Assembly (NCBI RefSeq): GCF_001424265.1
Contig: NZ_LMOV01000001.1
Coordinates: forward strand, 335,873-399,872
DNA: 64,000 bases
Direction: 5' to 3'
From: Acidovorax sp. Leaf160
GTDB taxonomy: Bacteria > Pseudomonadota > Gammaproteobacteria > Burkholderiales > Burkholderiaceae_C
Under the pieces are notes generated by a model. The model was given only the letters and a program-made list of their open reading frames with translations, was not told where the DNA came from and made no database searches. Each line of letters begins with the position of its first letter. Positions within the stretch are counted from its first letter, which is position 1. Both the position numbers and the translations under genes were made by a program. This document shows, piece by piece, positions 31,912 through 40,126 of the stretch.

Positions 31912-33117
31912 TCACAGCGGTTCCACGACGAAGCTCTCCATCGCGGCGCCGGCGGACAGCCGTTCCTGGAAACGCTGCGCCGTGTCCAGGGCTTCCGCGA
32001 TGGTGACGTGCATGTCGATGTAGCGGTAGGTGCCGAGCCGGCCGACGAAGGTCACGCCACGCTCCTGCCGCGCGCGCTCCACGTACCGGGCCAGCAAGGA
32101 CTTTTCCTTGACCAGGCGGATGGGGTAGTAGGGTGTGTCCGTGCCTTCGCACAGGCGGCTGTATTCCTTGAAGACCACGGTGTCCGCATGCTGCTCCCAC
32201 GGCGCGAAGTGCTTGTGTTCCGAGATCCGCGTCCAGGGCACCGAGGGGTCGCAGTAGTTGATGACGGCGTTGCCCTGGTAGTCGCCGCCATGGTCTTCCC
32301 GCACGAAGTCCAGCGTGCGGTACCCCAGGCGCCCCTCGTCGTAACCGAACCAGGCGTCGATGGGCCCGCTGCAGAAGACGTGGTCGTAGCGCGGCGCGTC
32401 CGATCGGTGGAAGGGCGTTTCCAGATGCACCGACACGGTCGGCAGATCGAGCAGGTTCTGCACGATGGCGGTGTAGCCGTCCCGCGGTATGCCCTGGTAG
32501 TGGCTGGCGTAGTAGTTGTCGTCGTAGTTGAACCGCACCGGCAGCCGCTTCAGGATGCTGGCCGGCAGGGCCGAGGGCGGCATGCCCCACTGCTTGGTGG
32601 TGTAGCCCGCGAAGAAGGCGTCATAGAGCGCGCGCCCCATCAAGCGCAGCGCCTGCTCCTCGAAGTTCTGCGGCTCGCCCTCGCCGGGCTCCCCGATCTG
32701 CGCGAAGAACGCTTCGGCTTCGCGTGGCGAAAAGGTCTTGCCGAAGAACTGGTTGATGGTCAGCAGGTTGAGCGGCAGGGAAAACACCCGGCCGCCGGTG
32801 AGGGCCTTCACCCGGTTGACGAAGGGCATGAACTCGCCGAACCGGCGGATGTAGTCCCATACGACCTGGTTGCTGGTGTGGAAGATGTGCGGGCCATAGG
32901 TGTGCAGCATCACGCCGGTGGCGTCGTCGCGGGCGGTGTGGCAGTTGCCGCCGACATGGGGGCGCGTGTCGAAGACGTCCACTTCATGGCCGGCGCGACC
33001 CAGTTCCTGGGCGAGCACGGCGCCGGAGAATCCGGCACCGACGATGGCGATGCGCTGCCTGCGCGCATCCGCCGGGCGGGCGTCGGCGGCAGGGGCGGGG
33101 TGGGACAGAGTGCTCAT
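31912..33117 (-). CDS. glf: UDP-galactopyranose mutase
   Basis: 401 residues. It interconverts UDP-galactopyranose and UDP-galactofuranose, the donor for galactofuranose in O-antigen or capsule. FAD-binding IAIVGAGFSGAVLAQELGRAGHEVDVFDTRPHVGGNCHT at 23-62, then the family markers YGPHIFHTSN, LPLNLLTINQFFG, GYTTKQWG and YYPIRLVKEK, and the final RLGTYRYIDMHVTIAEAL. Start overlaps the upstream glycosyltransferase stop by ATGA, so the two are coupled. No galactosyltransferase cluster beyond that gene is visible. Confidence 0.96.
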   Translation of the reverse strand: MSTLSHPAPAADARPADARRQRIAIVGAGFSGAVLAQELGRAGHEVDVFDTRPHVGGNCHTARDDATGVMLHTYGPHIFHTSNQVVWDYIRRFGEFMPFVNRVKALTGGRVFSLPLNLLTINQFFGKTFSPREAEAFFAQIGEPGEGEPQNFEEQALRLMGRALYDAFFAGYTTKQWGMPPSALPASILKRLPVRFNYDDNYYASHYQGIPRDGYTAIVQNLLDLPTVSVHLETPFHRSDAPRYDHVFCSGPIDAWFGYDEGRLGYRTLDFVREDHGGDYQGNAVINYCDPSVPWTRISEHKHFAPWEQHADTVVFKEYSRLCEGTDTPYYPIRLVKEKSLLARYVERARQERGVTFVGRLGTYRYIDMHVTIAEALDTAQRFQERLSAGAAMESFVVEPL

Positions 33118-35684
33118 GTGGCGGAAGCCGTTTCTTCGGCGGGGGCGGCCTGCGGCGCGCGTAGGTGGTCCATTGCTCCGGCGGCGTCGTCGAAGCGCTC
33201 CAGCAGCCGCTGCATGGCGGCGGCCGTCAGGTCCCACGAGGTGGCGGCCACCTTCGCCCGGGCCTTGCGCTGGAAGTCGGCCCGCTCCTGGTCGCCCCAG
33301 CCCAGGATGCGCTCGCAGGCGGCGACGAACTCGGCATGGGACTGCGCGATGGGCACCACGCCTGCATAGTGCTGGCGCACGTCGTGGATGTCGGTGCTCA
33401 CCGCGGGCTTGCCGGCAGCCAGATACTCGAGCGTCTTCGTCGGACTGATGAAGCGGGTGGAGGCATTGAGCGCGAAGGGCATGAGGCACACGTCCCAGCC
33501 CGACAGGAACGCGGGCAGCTCGTCGTAGCGGCGCTGGCCCATCCAGTGCAGGTTGGGCCGCTGGGGCAGGCTGGCGGGGTCGATCTTCACCACCGGGCCG
33601 ACCATCACCCACTGCCAGTCGGGGTGCGCGTCGGCGGCGGCGGCCATCAAGGCCAGGTCGAGCCGCTCGTCGATCACGCCGTAGTAGCCCAGACGTGGGC
33701 GCGCCATGCCCGCCTGGTCGGGATGGTCCGGCACCCCGGTCTGGCCGAAGTGCGCGTGATCGACACTGCTCGGAAAGCAATGCACGTCGGCATGCCGGCC
33801 GCGTTTGGATTCGTAGAGGCTGCGGCCGCCGGTGAAGACCAGGTCGACGGAACGCAGCAGGGCTTCTTCCCGCGCAAGCAGCTCTTTGGGGGCGAAGTCG
33901 AACGCCGAGAGCTCATCCATGCAGTCGTACACGGACCCGCGCGGCGTCAGCTCCTCTGCCAGGGGCAGGGCCATGGGGGTGTAGAACCAGAGCACGTAGT
34001 CATGGATGTCGTGCTCCAGCAGGTGGCCGAGCAGCAGCGTGCGCATGCCGTCCATGTGCTGTGCGTCGAAGCCGTGGGCGGTGCCGGGCATGTGCATGCG
34101 CAGCACCTCCACGCCGGCGCAGGGGCTGTAGCGTTCCAGCCAGGGCCGGTCGGCGCCAGGCATGGGTTCTTCGACGAACAGCACGGGGTGCCGGGCCGCC
34201 AGGCGCGAAAGCAGCTGCTGTGGGCGCTGATAGACGAAGTCCCAACGGAGATGCGAGAAAACGATCAGATGGGTCATGGGAGTCTCCGGTGAGGGGTGAA
34301 GGAAAGCGCTGTGGGAGTCGGGTGCGGGCAGGGTGTGCTGCCAATGCCGGAGCCGGTCGGCATAGGGGGCGCAGAGGCGCCGGTCCAGCCCGCCCGACGG
34401 GGCGTCCGGCAGGTCCCAGAGACCGCTGTGGTGCCAGTGCTGCGGCTCCTGCCAGTCGGGGCGGTCGATGAGCGGGTACAGGCACATGCCCAGCAGCGGA
34501 ATGCCGCGCGCCCTGCAGGCGACGGCCTCCGCTGCGATGTGATCCAGCCAGTCGCTGCGACCCACGCCGACGTGGCCCGTCTCCGACAGGCAGAGCGGCC
34601 GGCGGTACCGTTGCCATACGTCGGCGATCAGCTGCGAGGGCCGGCGCCTGCGGGTGTCGTTCAGGTGCCAGTGCAGCCGCGCGTGGCTGCCGTGTTCCCA
34701 CTGGTTGTTGTGGTAGTAGTTCAAGCCGATCAGGTCGAGGTAGCGCGGCGCGCCGCCCAGCTCCGGCGCCGCGCGGCCGCACAGCATGTCCCAGGCCTCG
34801 AACTGGCCGGCATGCTCTTGCGCTGCATCGGCGCAGGCGCCGGGGCCTGCGCCGCACGGCGGCTCCACATGCATCACCGGGTCGGTGTGCAGCAGCCGGG
34901 CGAGGGGCGCCACGCTCCACACCGCGTCGGCACCGCGCAGCGCCGCGCGCACCAGCACGCGCTTGAAAGCCTGGCCCCGATGCGGGTCCGCACTCGGGGC
35001 GTGGGGCCAGATGAGGCCGGTCCGGGTGGCCGCCCAGGCCAGGAAGGAAATCTCGTTCACCGGCTGGTACACCGGAGCTGGGCCGGGAATGCCCTGCACC
35101 GTCTCGGCCACGCGGCGGCAATACGCCGCGAAGGCGTCGACGAACTCATCGGGCCGCTCGAATGGGTCGAGCCGGTCGGGCCAGCCGTAGTGCATCAGCG
35201 TCCAGACCACCTGGAGGCCATGGGCTGCGGCCAGATGGGCCTGCCGGGCCAGCGCCCGGAACCCTTCGTCGCCCGCCCGGTCGATCAATCGCCAGCCGAT
35301 GCTTTCCCGCACGACGCGGATACCCAGCGGGCCGAGCGCGGCATAGTCCTCTACCAGCCGCGCGCCGTGTCCGTTGCGCACGTTCGCATCCAGCGGCATG
35401 CCCCAGCCGTTCACGTGGTCGGCGCCTTCGTAGCCGCCCATCCAGAAATCCTGGAAAGGGCTCGCTTCGTGGAAACCGGGGGGGATATGCCGGTGCGGCA
35501 GGCTGGTCGCCGGCGAGGAAGTTGCGCGGCGTAGCACGGGCATGTCGGGGGTCAAGATCGATAGAGCGGACGGGTGGGGAGGTTCCGACAGGCGGCACGG
35601 CGCTGTCTGAGAATCAGCCTGCGCCCCGCGCCACTCTGGCGTGTAGGGAAACAGCCCGCCTCGGCCTAGGAAGGGGCGCTGCAT
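33114..35684 (-). CDS. Glycoside hydrolase (clan GH-A)-glycosyltransferase fusion
   Basis: A single open frame of 856 residues from the ATG at 35684 (AGGAG 6 bases upstream). Residues about 60-450 are a GH1-like glycosidase: WMGGYEGADHVNGWG, the acid/base Glu in YQPVNEISFLAW, and the nucleophile Glu in PLCLSETGHVG. Residues 470-856 are a GT-B glycosyltransferase beginning MTHLIVFSHLRWDFVYQRPQQLLSRLA and ending FALNASTRFISPTKTLEYLAAGKPAVSTDI. An internal ATG at 34277 with GGAG upstream could start the glycosyltransferase alone, so the two may be made as a fusion, separately, or both. No stop separates them. Coupled to glf, pointing to surface polysaccharide synthesis. Confidence 0.82.
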   Translation of the reverse strand: MQRPFLGRGGLFPYTPEWRGAQADSQTAPCRLSEPPHPSALSILTPDMPVLRRATSSPATSLPHRHIPPGFHEASPFQDFWMGGYEGADHVNGWGMPLDANVRNGHGARLVEDYAALGPLGIRVVRESIGWRLIDRAGDEGFRALARQAHLAAAHGLQVVWTLMHYGWPDRLDPFERPDEFVDAFAAYCRRVAETVQGIPGPAPVYQPVNEISFLAWAATRTGLIWPHAPSADPHRGQAFKRVLVRAALRGADAVWSVAPLARLLHTDPVMHVEPPCGAGPGACADAAQEHAGQFEAWDMLCGRAAPELGGAPRYLDLIGLNYYHNNQWEHGSHARLHWHLNDTRRRRPSQLIADVWQRYRRPLCLSETGHVGVGRSDWLDHIAAEAVACRARGIPLLGMCLYPLIDRPDWQEPQHWHHSGLWDLPDAPSGGLDRRLCAPYADRLRHWQHTLPAPDSHSAFLHPSPETPMTHLIVFSHLRWDFVYQRPQQLLSRLAARHPVLFVEEPMPGADRPWLERYSPCAGVEVLRMHMPGTAHGFDAQHMDGMRTLLLGHLLEHDIHDYVLWFYTPMALPLAEELTPRGSVYDCMDELSAFDFAPKELLAREEALLRSVDLVFTGGRSLYESKRGRHADVHCFPSSVDHAHFGQTGVPDHPDQAGMARPRLGYYGVIDERLDLALMAAAADAHPDWQWVMVGPVVKIDPASLPQRPNLHWMGQRRYDELPAFLSGWDVCLMPFALNASTRFISPTKTLEYLAAGKPAVSTDIHDVRQHYAGVVPIAQSHAEFVAACERILGWGDQERADFQRKARAKVAATSWDLTAAAMQRLLERFDDAAGAMDHLRAPQAAPAEETASAT

Positions 35685-35956
35685 GGCGCTCCTGCGGCTG
35701 TAGGGTGGTATGCAAATGTTGACGGCGCCTTCTCCTACCCCGGCCAGAGGGGCCGCATGCAGGCTCGGGTGGCGGTGTGGGCCCGGAGGCAGTGAGGATG
35801 AGGCATGCCACCCAGACCCCCTGTGGATGGGCCGCACGGCCGAAAAGCTAAACCGCCGGTAATCGACCGCCGCGAGGAAGTGGCGTGCCCCGGTTTCCGC
35901 CGAGATCCCTTGGCAGCATGCAGTAACGACACCGTCCGTCCAACAGAACAAAAATC

Positions 35957-38900
35957 ATGCAACAAGACACCTCAGCCGCCCTCAGCGCACGGGTCATTGC
36001 CAAAAGCCACCTTGCCTTCCCGATAGTGGGCATCGGTGCTTCCGCAGGCGGCCTCGAAGCCTTGCGCCGGCTGCTGGCGGAACTGCCTGCCGAGCCGGGG
36101 CTCGCCATGGTGGTCGTGATGCATCTGAGCCCGGAGCACGAAAGCGCGCTGGGCTCGATCCTGAGCCGGGTGGGCAAGCTGCCGGTGACGACCGTGACCC
36201 AGACCACTCGCATCGCCATCGACCACGTGTACGTGATTTCGCCGGCCCTGCGGCTGGTGATGAGCGATGGCGAGTTGCAGGTCTATCCTTTGACCACGCT
36301 CGAAGGCCGGCGCCGATCCGTCGACCTGTTCTTTCGCAGCCTGGCGCAGGCGCATGCCGAACACGCCGTCGGCATCGTGCTTTCGGGCACCGGCAGCGAC
36401 GGTGCGCAAGGGCTGCGCCGCATCAAGGAGGCCGGCGGCTTGACAATGGTGCAGAGCCTGGAGGATGCCGAATACGACGGCATGCCGCGATCCGCCATCC
36501 AGACCCAGGCTGTGGATTTCGTGATGCCGGTAGAGGAGATGCCTGGCAAGCTGGTGCAGCTGCTGCAGAACGCCCGACGGATCGAAATGCCCAGCCCGCC
36601 CGATGAGCTCGACGTGCTGCAGTCCAGGGGCGAAGCCGCCGTGCTGGCCGAAGAGGCGTTGTTGTCCATCAAGGCGCTGCTGCGCGAACGCACCGGCCAT
36701 GACTTTTCCCACTACAAGCGGGGCACGGTGCTGCGCCGCATCGAACGGCGCATGCAGGTCAACGGCATGCCGGACCTGCCCAGCTATCGCCGCCTGCTCG
36801 ATTCCGAGCCGCGCGAGACGCCGGCCTTGCTGCAGGACATGCTCATCAGCGTGACCAATTTTTTCCGCGACCCGGACGCCTTCGACCTGCTGAAGCGATC
36901 GATCCAGCAGTTCCTGCGGGAGCGCCAGGCCAACGAGCCCTTCCGCGCCTGGGTCGCTGGCTGTGCCTCGGGCGAGGAGGCCTACTCCATCGCCATCCTG
37001 CTGCGCGAGGTACTGGGCGCACACGGCGTGCCGGTGCAGCTCTTCGCGTCGGACATCGACGAGCGGGCGGTGGCTGCCGCTCGCACCGGCGTGTTCCCGG
37101 CCTCCATCGGTGGCGACGTGGAGCCCGAACGCCTGCGCGACTTCTTCCTGACGGAAGCAGGAGGGCTGCGCATCGCCAAGAGCGTTCGCGATACGGTGGT
37201 CTTCTCCGTTCACAACGTGCTGAGCGACCCGCCCTTCACCCGCATGGATCTCATCTGCTGCCGCAACCTGCTGATCTATCTCGACCGGGTCGCGCAGCTG
37301 CAGGTGCTGCAGAGCTTCCATTTCTCCTTGAAGGCGGGCGGCCTGCTGTTCCTCGGCAGCTCGGAAACGGCCGACGTGGCGGACACGCTGTTCGACGAGG
37401 TGGACAAGACCCACCGCATCTACCGCGCCAGCCGCCAGACACAGCGCGCCCGCCCGTTGCCCCCCCTGCCGAGCCGCATCGCGGACCTGCCGGTGCCGCC
37501 ACCGCGCACGGCCAGCGCTTCGCCGCCCAAGCCTCCGCTGGAGCTGCTGCACGAACGCATCGTGCGCAATTACTCTCCGCCCACGGTGCTGGTCGATGCC
37601 GACGACACCGTGCTGCACGTGAGCCATCGCGCCTCGCACCTGCTGCGGTTGCCGGAAGGCGTGCCGTCCAACAAGCTGCTGGCGCTGGCCCGGCCCGAAT
37701 TGCGGGCCGAGCTGCGCGCGGCTCTCAGCCGGGCGGCCGAAACCGGCTTCACCGTGGCTTCGCCCAGCGTGCGGTTAACCATCAACGGCGTGCCTTCCAC
37801 CGTCGTGATGACCGTGCGGCCCGCGGTGGACGAGACTCCCAAGGGCTTGATGCTGGTGGTGTTCGACGAAGCCCGCGAGAGCATGGGTCTGCCCGCCGAA
37901 GGAATGGATGGGCGCGACCCGGTCATCGAGTCGCTGGAGTCGGAGCTGCTGCTCACGCAGGAGCGGCTGCGCAACATGCTGGGCGAATCGACGGCGTCCA
38001 CCGAGGAGTTGCGTGCCTCCAACGAGGAACTGCAGACCATCAACGAGGAGCTTCGCTCCACGACCGAGGAGCTGGAAACCAGCCGGGAGGAACTGCAGGC
38101 GGTGAACGAGGAGCTGACCACCGTCAATTCGGAGCTGACCCTGCGGATGGAGGACAGCTCCAAGCTCAGCGACGACCTGCAGAACCTGATGAATTCCGCC
38201 GAGATCGGCACCGTGTTCGTGGACCGGGAGATGAAGCTCAAGCGCTTCACGCCGCAGGCGGCGACGCTCTTCAACCTGCTGCCCACCGACACGGGCCGCC
38301 CACTGCTCGACATCACCCACCGGCTTCAATACGACGAGCTGGCCAGCGATGTCGCCGACGTGCTGCGCGACCTCAGGCGCATCGAGCGGGAGGTGCGCAG
38401 CCTGGACCACCGCTGGTTTCTCGCCCGGGTCGTGCCCTATCGCACCAGCGAGGACCGCATCGAGGGGGCGGTGCTCGCGTTCTTCGACATCACGTCGCGC
38501 CGCATGATCGAGGAGAAGCTGCGGCTGAGCGAGCAGCGCATGCGGCTGGTGGCCGAAAGCATGCGCGACTACGCCATCATCACCATGGATGAGAAAGGCG
38601 TCATCGCCACATGGAGCCCGGGCGCGGAAAAGATCTTCGGCCACAGCCTGGAGGAAGCCGTCGGCCAGCCGTTCGACATCCTCTTCGAGGCGAGCGACCG
38701 TGCCGCGGGCAAGCCCCGGATGGAACTGCAGAAGGCGCGGGATACCGGCCGGGCGGATGACAACCAGTGGCACGTCCGCAAGAACGGGGAACGCATCTTC
38801 TGCAGCGGCATCACGACCCCGCTGGGCGAGGGAGGTGTCATCGGCTTCGCGAAGATCTGCCGCAATTTCACGCAGGAGGAGTTTCGCGAGCGGCAGCGGG

Positions 38901-40126
38901 ACGCGGCGCTGGAAACGGAGCGCGCCACCACCCACCGGCTGCACGAGGCGGGCGTGATGAAGGACGAATTCCTCGCGGTGGTGTCGCACGAACTGAAGAA
39001 CCCGCTGTCTGTCATCCAGATGAACGCGCAGCTGCTCTCGCGTCTGCCCACCCTGCAGGGCGAAAGCCGGGCGCTGCGGGCTGCCCGGGCGATCCAGGGG
39101 GCAGTGGCCAGCCAGCTGCAGATCATCAACGACCTGCTGGAGCTTTCGCGTGCCAACATGGGCAAGCTGGTGCTCGCACCGAGCGTGTTCGATGTGGCGG
39201 ACACGCTCCGCGGCATCGTCGACGCACTGGTCAGCAACGCGCAGGCCAAGCAACTGACGATCAACGTCGACGCGGTGCCGGCCAGGCTCTACGCCGACCC
39301 GGTGCGCATCGAGCAGGTGGTGTGGAACCTGATGACCAACGCGGTCAAGTTCACCCCCAGCGGTGGCAGCGTCCATGCCGCCTTGACCGTGGAGGCGGGC
39401 ATGGCCGTGCTGACCGTGGCGGATTCGGGCATCGGGCTGCACCCGGCCGATCTGGCGGGGATCTTCGAGATGTTCCGGCAGGTCGATTCCGGTGCCAGCC
39501 GGCGCAGCGGAGGCCTGGGCATCGGGCTCGCCCTGGTCCGCCAGTTGGTCGAACTGCACGGCGGGCGCGTGGCCGCCCACTCGGAAGGACAAGGGCGGGG
39601 GGCGTGCTTCACCGTCTGGCTACCCCTGTGTCTGGCCGCATCGGAAGACGTCGAAGGGGCGCAGCCCCCGTGCAGCCTGGACGGCCTGCGCCTGTTGGTG
39701 GTGGACGACGAGCCCGACCTGTTGAACGCGTTCGGTGCGCTGCTGGAGGGCGAGGGCGCGCAGGTACGGCTCTGTACCGGCGCCGAGGAAGCCCTGGCGC
39801 AGGCGCATGCCGGTGCTTTCGACGCCGTGATCTCCGACATCGCCATGCCGGGGCGGGATGGCTACTGGCTTGCGCAGCAGCTGCGGGCGGACCCGACCAC
39901 GCGGGCGCTGACGCTGGTGGCGGCCTCGGGCATGGCGCGGGAGGTGGACCGATCCCGCGCCCTGGCCGCAGGCTTCGATGCCCATCTCGGCAAGCCGGTC
40001 GACATCGATCTGCTCAACAACGTGTTGGTGGCCGCATTCAGACAGCGCCACCCGCAAGCCACGGACGATGCACGCCGCGGTGCATCGGCGGGAACGGGCA
40101 ACAAATTGCCGCCGGCCACCGTCTGA
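35957..40126 (+). CDS. CheB-CheR-PAS hybrid histidine kinase with receiver domain
   Basis: 1389 residues. CheB methylesterase (about 20-210: GIGASAGGLEALRR with Ser29, MHLSPEHES, VLSGTGSDGAQGL); CheR methyltransferase (about 230-490: TVLRRIERRMQ, WVAGCASGEEAYSIAILL, DLICCRNLLIYL); a long Glu-rich coiled coil (about 660-740); two or three PAS domains (540-985); histidine kinase (VVSHELKNPLSV, His1011; LGIGLALVRQLVELHGG); receiver (phospho-Asp1294 in ISDIAMPGRDGY). No membrane segment, so it senses a cytoplasmic signal. The domain order is known for a bacterial family of unclear signals; no partner regulator is adjacent. Convergent with recQ. Confidence 0.95.
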   Translation: MQQDTSAALSARVIAKSHLAFPIVGIGASAGGLEALRRLLAELPAEPGLAMVVVMHLSPEHESALGSILSRVGKLPVTTVTQTTRIAIDHVYVISPALRLVMSDGELQVYPLTTLEGRRRSVDLFFRSLAQAHAEHAVGIVLSGTGSDGAQGLRRIKEAGGLTMVQSLEDAEYDGMPRSAIQTQAVDFVMPVEEMPGKLVQLLQNARRIEMPSPPDELDVLQSRGEAAVLAEEALLSIKALLRERTGHDFSHYKRGTVLRRIERRMQVNGMPDLPSYRRLLDSEPRETPALLQDMLISVTNFFRDPDAFDLLKRSIQQFLRERQANEPFRAWVAGCASGEEAYSIAILLREVLGAHGVPVQLFASDIDERAVAAARTGVFPASIGGDVEPERLRDFFLTEAGGLRIAKSVRDTVVFSVHNVLSDPPFTRMDLICCRNLLIYLDRVAQLQVLQSFHFSLKAGGLLFLGSSETADVADTLFDEVDKTHRIYRASRQTQRARPLPPLPSRIADLPVPPPRTASASPPKPPLELLHERIVRNYSPPTVLVDADDTVLHVSHRASHLLRLPEGVPSNKLLALARPELRAELRAALSRAAETGFTVASPSVRLTINGVPSTVVMTVRPAVDETPKGLMLVVFDEARESMGLPAEGMDGRDPVIESLESELLLTQERLRNMLGESTASTEELRASNEELQTINEELRSTTEELETSREELQAVNEELTTVNSELTLRMEDSSKLSDDLQNLMNSAEIGTVFVDREMKLKRFTPQAATLFNLLPTDTGRPLLDITHRLQYDELASDVADVLRDLRRIEREVRSLDHRWFLARVVPYRTSEDRIEGAVLAFFDITSRRMIEEKLRLSEQRMRLVAESMRDYAIITMDEKGVIATWSPGAEKIFGHSLEEAVGQPFDILFEASDRAAGKPRMELQKARDTGRADDNQWHVRKNGERIFCSGITTPLGEGGVIGFAKICRNFTQEEFRERQRDAALETERATTHRLHEAGVMKDEFLAVVSHELKNPLSVIQMNAQLLSRLPTLQGESRALRAARAIQGAVASQLQIINDLLELSRANMGKLVLAPSVFDVADTLRGIVDALVSNAQAKQLTINVDAVPARLYADPVRIEQVVWNLMTNAVKFTPSGGSVHAALTVEAGMAVLTVADSGIGLHPADLAGIFEMFRQVDSGASRRSGGLGIGLALVRQLVELHGGRVAAHSEGQGRGACFTVWLPLCLAASEDVEGAQPPCSLDGLRLLVVDDEPDLLNAFGALLEGEGAQVRLCTGAEEALAQAHAGAFDAVISDIAMPGRDGYWLAQQLRADPTTRALTLVAASGMAREVDRSRALAAGFDAHLGKPVDIDLLNNVLVAAFRQRHPQATDDARRGASAGTGNKLPPATV

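Follow-up and report, generated by a model that had tools for sequence, protein, structure and literature searches.

CheA, McrB, and IF2 are each made as a long and a short isoform from one reading frame, the short isoform arising from an in-frame internal start. Here we describe what appears to be such a start in a gene that joins a glycoside hydrolase (GH) to a glycosyltransferase (GT), found in a stretch of 64,000 nucleotides (nt) of Acidovorax sp. Leaf160 (assembly GCF_001424265.1, contig NZ_LMOV01000001.1, positions 335,873 to 399,872), which we refer to as the window. The gene is followed by glf, encoding a bacterial-type UDP-galactopyranose mutase (UGM). The predicted internal start is in the same frame as the fusion, has its own ribosome-binding signal, and is conserved in relatives beyond what the amino-acid sequence accounts for. 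Based on the comparison of sequences, we consider it likely that the one frame gives both a GH-GT protein of about 90-95 kDa and a free GT of 43 kDa, and that UDP-galactofuranose is used.

The GH-GT frame is on the minus strand and runs from an ATG at 35684 to a TGA at 33116-33114, 856 codons without an internal stop. The original prediction, made from the letters of the window and leaving the strand unstated, described a single stop-free frame at 33114-35684 in which a clan GH-A hydrolase with both catalytic Glu residues continues into a GT-B glycosyltransferase next to glf, with a Met at the junction (34277) preceded by its own GGAG. All of this was borne out: the GGAG is at 34287-34284 with a spacing of 6 nt, glf matches TIGR00031 and overlaps the GH-GT stop, and the two enzymes can be narrowed to GH1-like and GT4-like. 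The parts of the locus are:

33114..35684, minus strand: GH-GT fusion open reading frame (ORF), 856 codons plus stop; start uncertain, 35684 or 35543
35689..35693, minus strand: AGGAG, candidate Shine-Dalgarno sequence of the long product, 4 nt upstream of the ATG at 35684, read from the sequence
34329..35456, minus strand: GH1-like domain, residues 77-452, with predicted catalytic N210-E211 (35057-35052) and E368 (34583-34581)
34278..34328, minus strand: linker between GH and GT, residues 453-469, variable (13% identity) and predicted to be disordered (low pLDDT, the predicted local distance difference test)
34284..34287, minus strand: GGAG, predicted internal Shine-Dalgarno sequence, 6 nt before the internal ATG, duplex energy -6.6 kcal/mol
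34275..34277, minus strand: predicted internal start codon, ATG, Met470; a start codon is present here in 63 of 65 full-length GH-GT frames
33117..34277, minus strand: GT4-like glycosyltransferase, residues 470-856, 387 amino acids, 43 kDa; the C-terminal half and the proposed short product
31912..33117, minus strand: glf, bacterial-type UGM (TIGR00031), joined to the fusion by an ATGA overlap (33117-33114) of its ATG with the GH-GT stop

The N-terminal start of the long product is uncertain. Residues 1-64 are unaligned and predicted to be disordered, and a start at Met48 (35543) is nearer to the N-termini of relatives, yet the ATG at 35684 has the AGGAG at 4 nt. The computed mass is about 95 kDa from Met1 and 90 kDa from Met48.

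The fusion is almost certainly real and conserved. Relatives came from one scan of genome contigs that gave 174 stretches, the best 80 of 174 being kept. Counting over the kept stretches plus G002 and the window, after removal of a duplicate and of a frame truncated at the end of its contig, we found 65 full-length, non-duplicate loci with GH and GT in one frame, the window included, mostly from Comamonadaceae, Oxalobacteraceae, and Enterobacterales. L024 (same place as L031), L142 (taken as a duplicate of L033), L109 (status unclear), and L091 (GH cut by the contig end, the junction ATG being present there too) were left out; L076, L079, and L085 were kept although other parts of the gene carry frameshifts. 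Of 17 genomes compared within the genus, including the window's own, a strong match to the whole fusion was found only in the window's genome, G001, and G002, and 22 of 399 genomes of the order had a match at E 1e-60. The original prediction looked to relatives for either the fusion or two genes: the fusion was found in the 65 full-length loci, while in a minority a stop split the junction, as in the refutation that the prediction had named: into GH and GT in L080 and into GH and GT-UGM in L095 and L145.

The start codon at the junction is kept in a region where little else is. A start codon was present at the exact start of GT in 63 of the 65 frames, and these are all of the frames whose GT is normal (59 ATG and four GTG, the latter in L059, L074, L086, and L108, the Atlantibacter group). 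The 15 codons before it had a mean pairwise identity of 13%, pLDDT fell below 50 at residues 457-468 in the linker of the two-domain model, and there were no start codons at the eight positions just upstream. The distance between the start and the GT motif was 10, 11, 12, or 13 residues, the start shifting along with a short insertion. Ten further junctions, examined afterwards, all had ATG at this site, although in L168 and L170 the wider frame was broken elsewhere. The stand-alone GTs L112, L150, and L151 carry other residues at the site, and the fold therefore needs no methionine there.

The junction also has Shine-Dalgarno cores and an open mRNA structure. We found a core at a spacing of 4-10 in 47 of 63 junctions and, after thinning to genus-level representatives, in 30 of 44, versus 45 of 980 other in-frame ATGs. 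In a second thinning (42 representatives) there were 29 cores, compared to means of 15.3 with synonymous codons and 3.0 with shuffled codon order; under either null, 29 was reached in none of 2000 draws. In the 50 nt around the junction start, structure was lower than in almost any other window of the ORF (median rank 0.033), and in 38 of 42 representatives the junction mRNA was less structured than its own synonymous versions (positive fold z). The second junction of the same proteins, between GT and UGM, had no conserved start codon in 43 triple fusions and no unusually low structure (median rank 0.344, n=25). In our judgement, the internal start is very likely functional in the family and quite probably functional in this organism.

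Two frames without a start codon at the junction are exceptions. In L088 (Lautropia metagenome-assembled genome, MAG) and L089 (Limnobacter MAG), which are outside the 63 because their GT motif was unmatched, the fused GT keeps just 61 and 63 of 106 conserved positions. An intact free GT gene immediately upstream keeps 105 and 104 of these positions. A degenerate fused GT together with an intact free one is expected if the free GT is needed and its own gene can supply it. The two are probably one lineage and hence are counted once. The stretches L088:2542-6300 and L089:7737-11752 look like two products divided between two genes.

The GT is a GT4-like enzyme that occurs with UGMs of two types. 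It exceeds the Pfam Glyco_trans_1_4 cut-off (40.7 bits vs 27), and its Foldseek match is the GT4 enzyme MshA (3c48, GT-B fold). Its nearest NCBIfam model, TuaH (NF047676), gave 83.8, below the equivalog cut-off of 550, and a PDB sequence search with the GT profile gave no relatives at E 0.01. The window's glf scored only just above the TIGR00031 equivalog cut-off (303.9 vs 303.75). The window's clade has this separate bacterial glf in place of a fused UGM; at least 43 of the 63 normal-GT frames continue into a eukaryotic-type UGM as a third domain, and in most loci a UGM of one type or the other is fused or adjacent. Our first guess for the third domain of these 1300-residue proteins was bacterial glf, but blastp with glf gave none, and a PDB search pointed to the eukaryotic-type enzyme. 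The third domain of one Pantoea triple fusion matched PDB UGM chains (best E 1.7e-46, 3ute), which we take to be fungal and trypanosomal enzymes; this identity was checked against PDB for that one protein, and the others were found by tblastn with its domain. Triple fusions with a eukaryotic-type UGM (L045:10350-11756 and others) occur in Enterobacterales and Betaproteobacteria. On a Methylomagnum plasmid (L162:8058-14622), a GH2-type gene, galT, and galK come after a GT-UGM fusion, together a compact cassette leading from galactose to galactofuranose. Because the GT is often paired with either type of UGM, and because galT-galK is beside the Methylomagnum GT-UGM, galactofuranose is quite likely to be the donor.

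The modules also occur in other arrangements. The order is GT, glf, GH in Skermanella and Chryseobacterium and GH, GT, glf in Deinococcus; in Azospirillum, a glf gene containing the GT is followed by GH. In L099, L104, and L107, GT is fused to UGM without a GH, indicating that the short form would be a workable protein. On a quick GT tree with long branches (74 rows), the GH-fused state needs nine changes, at least seven of them forced by starred branches, and UGM type needs at least four, indicating that modules were repeatedly joined, split, and swapped.

The GH domain is predicted to have the GH1 fold and its two catalytic glutamates. The family profile matched GH1-type enzymes in PDB (best E 1e-13). 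In the AlphaFold2 model, the GH part had a mean pLDDT of 84 and was confident from about residue 80 onward, and the best Foldseek matches were GH1 beta-glucosidases and 6-phospho-beta-glucosidases, with template modeling (TM) scores of about 0.6-0.7. N210-E211 and E368 were invariant in two alignments (46 of 46 aligned fusions and 38 of 38 GH domains). The domain did not reach the cut-off of Pfam PF00232 (GH1; 15.2 bits vs 22.6), and we therefore call it GH1-like and do not file it as GH1. One GH relative (L149:3744-6683) has about 570 N-terminal residues without a Pfam match.

We infer that both proteins are made, that galactofuranose is the donor, and that the GT forms an oligomer, and the role of the hydrolase is of the same standing. 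Ribosomes starting at the 5' end would make GH-GT, initiation at Met470 by other ribosomes would yield free GT, and glf would then be translated through the ATGA stop-start overlap. UGM would supply UDP-galactofuranose, and the GT4-like enzyme would transfer galactofuranose to a cytosolic acceptor, probably small. The hydrolase, being joined to UGM and to a GT whose donor is a nucleotide sugar, is expected to be cytosolic; its substrate would then be the acceptor or product of the GT rather than a polymer already exported. This substrate would be hydrolyzed or transglycosylated by the GH1-like domain, which only some of the GT subunits would carry. Among solved folds, MshA is the nearest to the GT, and it is a homodimer, so the long and short chains could mix, and the internal start may set the ratio of GH to GT within the GT oligomer. 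Tentatively, we suggest that the gene might encode subunit stoichiometry: through the internal start of an old fusion, a GH1-like transglycosidase would sit on just a fraction of the GT subunits, and these would form with UGM a single, self-contained cytosolic assembly whose product is a small molecule or lipid bearing galactofuranose. Limnobacter and Lautropia would have divided the two products between two genes, leaving the fused transferase as a scaffold.

Several observations weigh against the reading of two products in a galactofuranose pathway. The substrates of GH1 enzymes are beta-pyranosides and GT4 enzymes work with retention, which means that the sugar added by the GT is not necessarily the one on which the GH acts. 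In L103:1596-3773 and L106:9210-11663, a fusion of GH1 to an RmlD-type (dTDP-4-dehydrorhamnose reductase-like) domain comes after the same GT; no UGM was found at these two loci, and the donor sugar may therefore vary. The junction was the strongest in-frame ATG by duplex energy in just 7 of 63 frames, and single-sequence synonymous tests gave p<0.1 in just 13 of 63. Because the rows are related to one another, the nulls treat them as more independent than they are, and thinning was by a genus-like label and not by a phylogenetic model. Finally, the Shine-Dalgarno sequence is mostly weak in the window's own clade: among 11 loci with a neighboring bacterial UGM gene, only the window (-6.6) and L025 (-5.1) were at or below -5 kcal/mol. 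This clade keeps the start codon and the open structure (all 9 loci tested had a positive fold z, 0.2 at the lowest). For E. coli, initiation at the correct site without Shine-Dalgarno pairing is documented, with promotion of initiation by A-rich leaders and lower mRNA structure at true starts (PMC7043885).

The conserved junction could be explained without a second product if the gene were a plain bifunctional fusion that makes only the long GH-GT protein, the ATG and GGAG being leftovers of an ancestral separate GT gene. The frame is open in the 65 full-length loci, stand-alone GT genes often share the same start, so that the signals could be inherited, and the weak Shine-Dalgarno sequences across much of the window's clade also fit. 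Nonetheless, we think this unlikely: a linker at 13% identity would have erased such leftovers, yet the start codon stays in all of the normal-GT frames, the Shine-Dalgarno cores exceed the synonymous null, and the start is lost exactly where an intact free GT exists (L088 and L089). An effect of composition is still harder to reconcile with the data. Linkers rich in Pro, Ser, and Thr, along with Glu, Gln, and Lys codons, would yield Shine-Dalgarno-like words and low structure without function, and synonymous resampling alone does give 15.3 of 42 core motifs. But none of the 2000 draws was as high as the observed 29 of 42, the linker between GT and UGM in these proteins is neither unusually unstructured nor provided with a conserved start, and composition cannot account for a start codon at the same place in each of the 63 frames. 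We regard this explanation as highly improbable.

It is also conceivable that there are two separately used genes, with only the GT start mattering, the upstream GH being dispensable, and the absence of a stop between the two incidental. The split arrangements in L080, L095, and L145 and the several loci at which no GH was found are consistent with this. In the saturated linker, an average of 5 of 15 codons are one step from a stop, yet the linker is open in all 65 full-length loci, which is better explained by selection for a joined protein than by chance; furthermore, just three adjacent split pairs were seen versus 65 joined. We therefore consider two separate genes very unlikely. That the fusion is a sequencing or assembly error has practically no probability left, as the same arrangement is found in independent genomes, including complete plasmids of Comamonas antarctica and Comamonas endophytica. 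The original prediction proposed a bifunctional enzyme or overlapping products, and the results favor both at once, with the frame open through the saturated linker and the junction start kept.

The surroundings of the locus in the window are unrelated to it. They encode xanthine dehydrogenase parts, XdhC, a MobA-like protein, and a CheB/CheR/PAS hybrid kinase; there is no polysaccharide locus, and the description of the fusion as a polysaccharide enzyme in the original prediction is not supported. The GC content of the locus is that of its surroundings, and a sigma-70 promoter scan found no promoters. The divergent neighbor (35957-40126 of the window) is a CheB-CheR-PAS-histidine kinase-receiver hybrid of 1389 residues, and PAS-domain signaling genes are near the cassette also in Azospirillum, Methylomagnum, and Comamonas endophytica. 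In Azospirillum, Skermanella, and Chimaeribacter, the cassette is followed by a gene for an ABC transporter, a hint of export.

If both products are made, this would be a widely conserved internal start in a fusion of metabolic enzymes. In the annotated records that we examined, an intact locus of this kind is listed as one protein, so the short product is invisible in annotation. The system offers a clean negative control (the GT-UGM junction) and a natural experiment (the lineage that appears to have moved the short product to its own gene). A literature search with little reach into subscription journals found no report of the cassette, the triple fusion, or such a dual start, and no description of bacterial triple fusions in which one domain is a UGM of eukaryotic type. 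The cassette appears to be an uncharacterized, self-contained galactofuranose system in which bacterial and eukaryotic-type UGMs are interchangeable.

The locus resembles several described systems in part. Galactan synthases and O-antigen galactofuranose transferases (Kingella kingae, PMC12269835; Klebsiella) likewise use UDP-galactofuranose from UGM, but they are in lipopolysaccharide or O-antigen loci, and no GH1 domain is mentioned in the accessible parts of these reports. The UGMs themselves resemble known ones, glf by its TIGR00031 match and the Pantoea third domain by its PDB matches; what differs is that the two types alternate as neighbors or fusion partners of the same GT. The GT shares the GT-B fold, the Glyco_trans_1_4 match, and the fold match to MshA with GT4-type transferases, but it is far below the TuaH cut-off and without a PDB sequence relative at the threshold used. 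The GH domain has the barrel fold, the two catalytic Glu residues, and the best profile and fold matches in common with GH1 beta-glucosidases and 6-phospho-beta-glucosidases. GH1 enzymes have the motifs NEP and ENG, whereas this domain has NE[ILV] and ET[GS]H, a Pfam score below the cut-off, and a glycosyltransferase fused to it. As in CheA, McrB, and IF2, there would be one frame with two starts and a C-terminal short product with its own start, usually with a Shine-Dalgarno sequence; in contrast to those proteins, the frame here fuses two enzymes, and the short product would be one whole enzyme.

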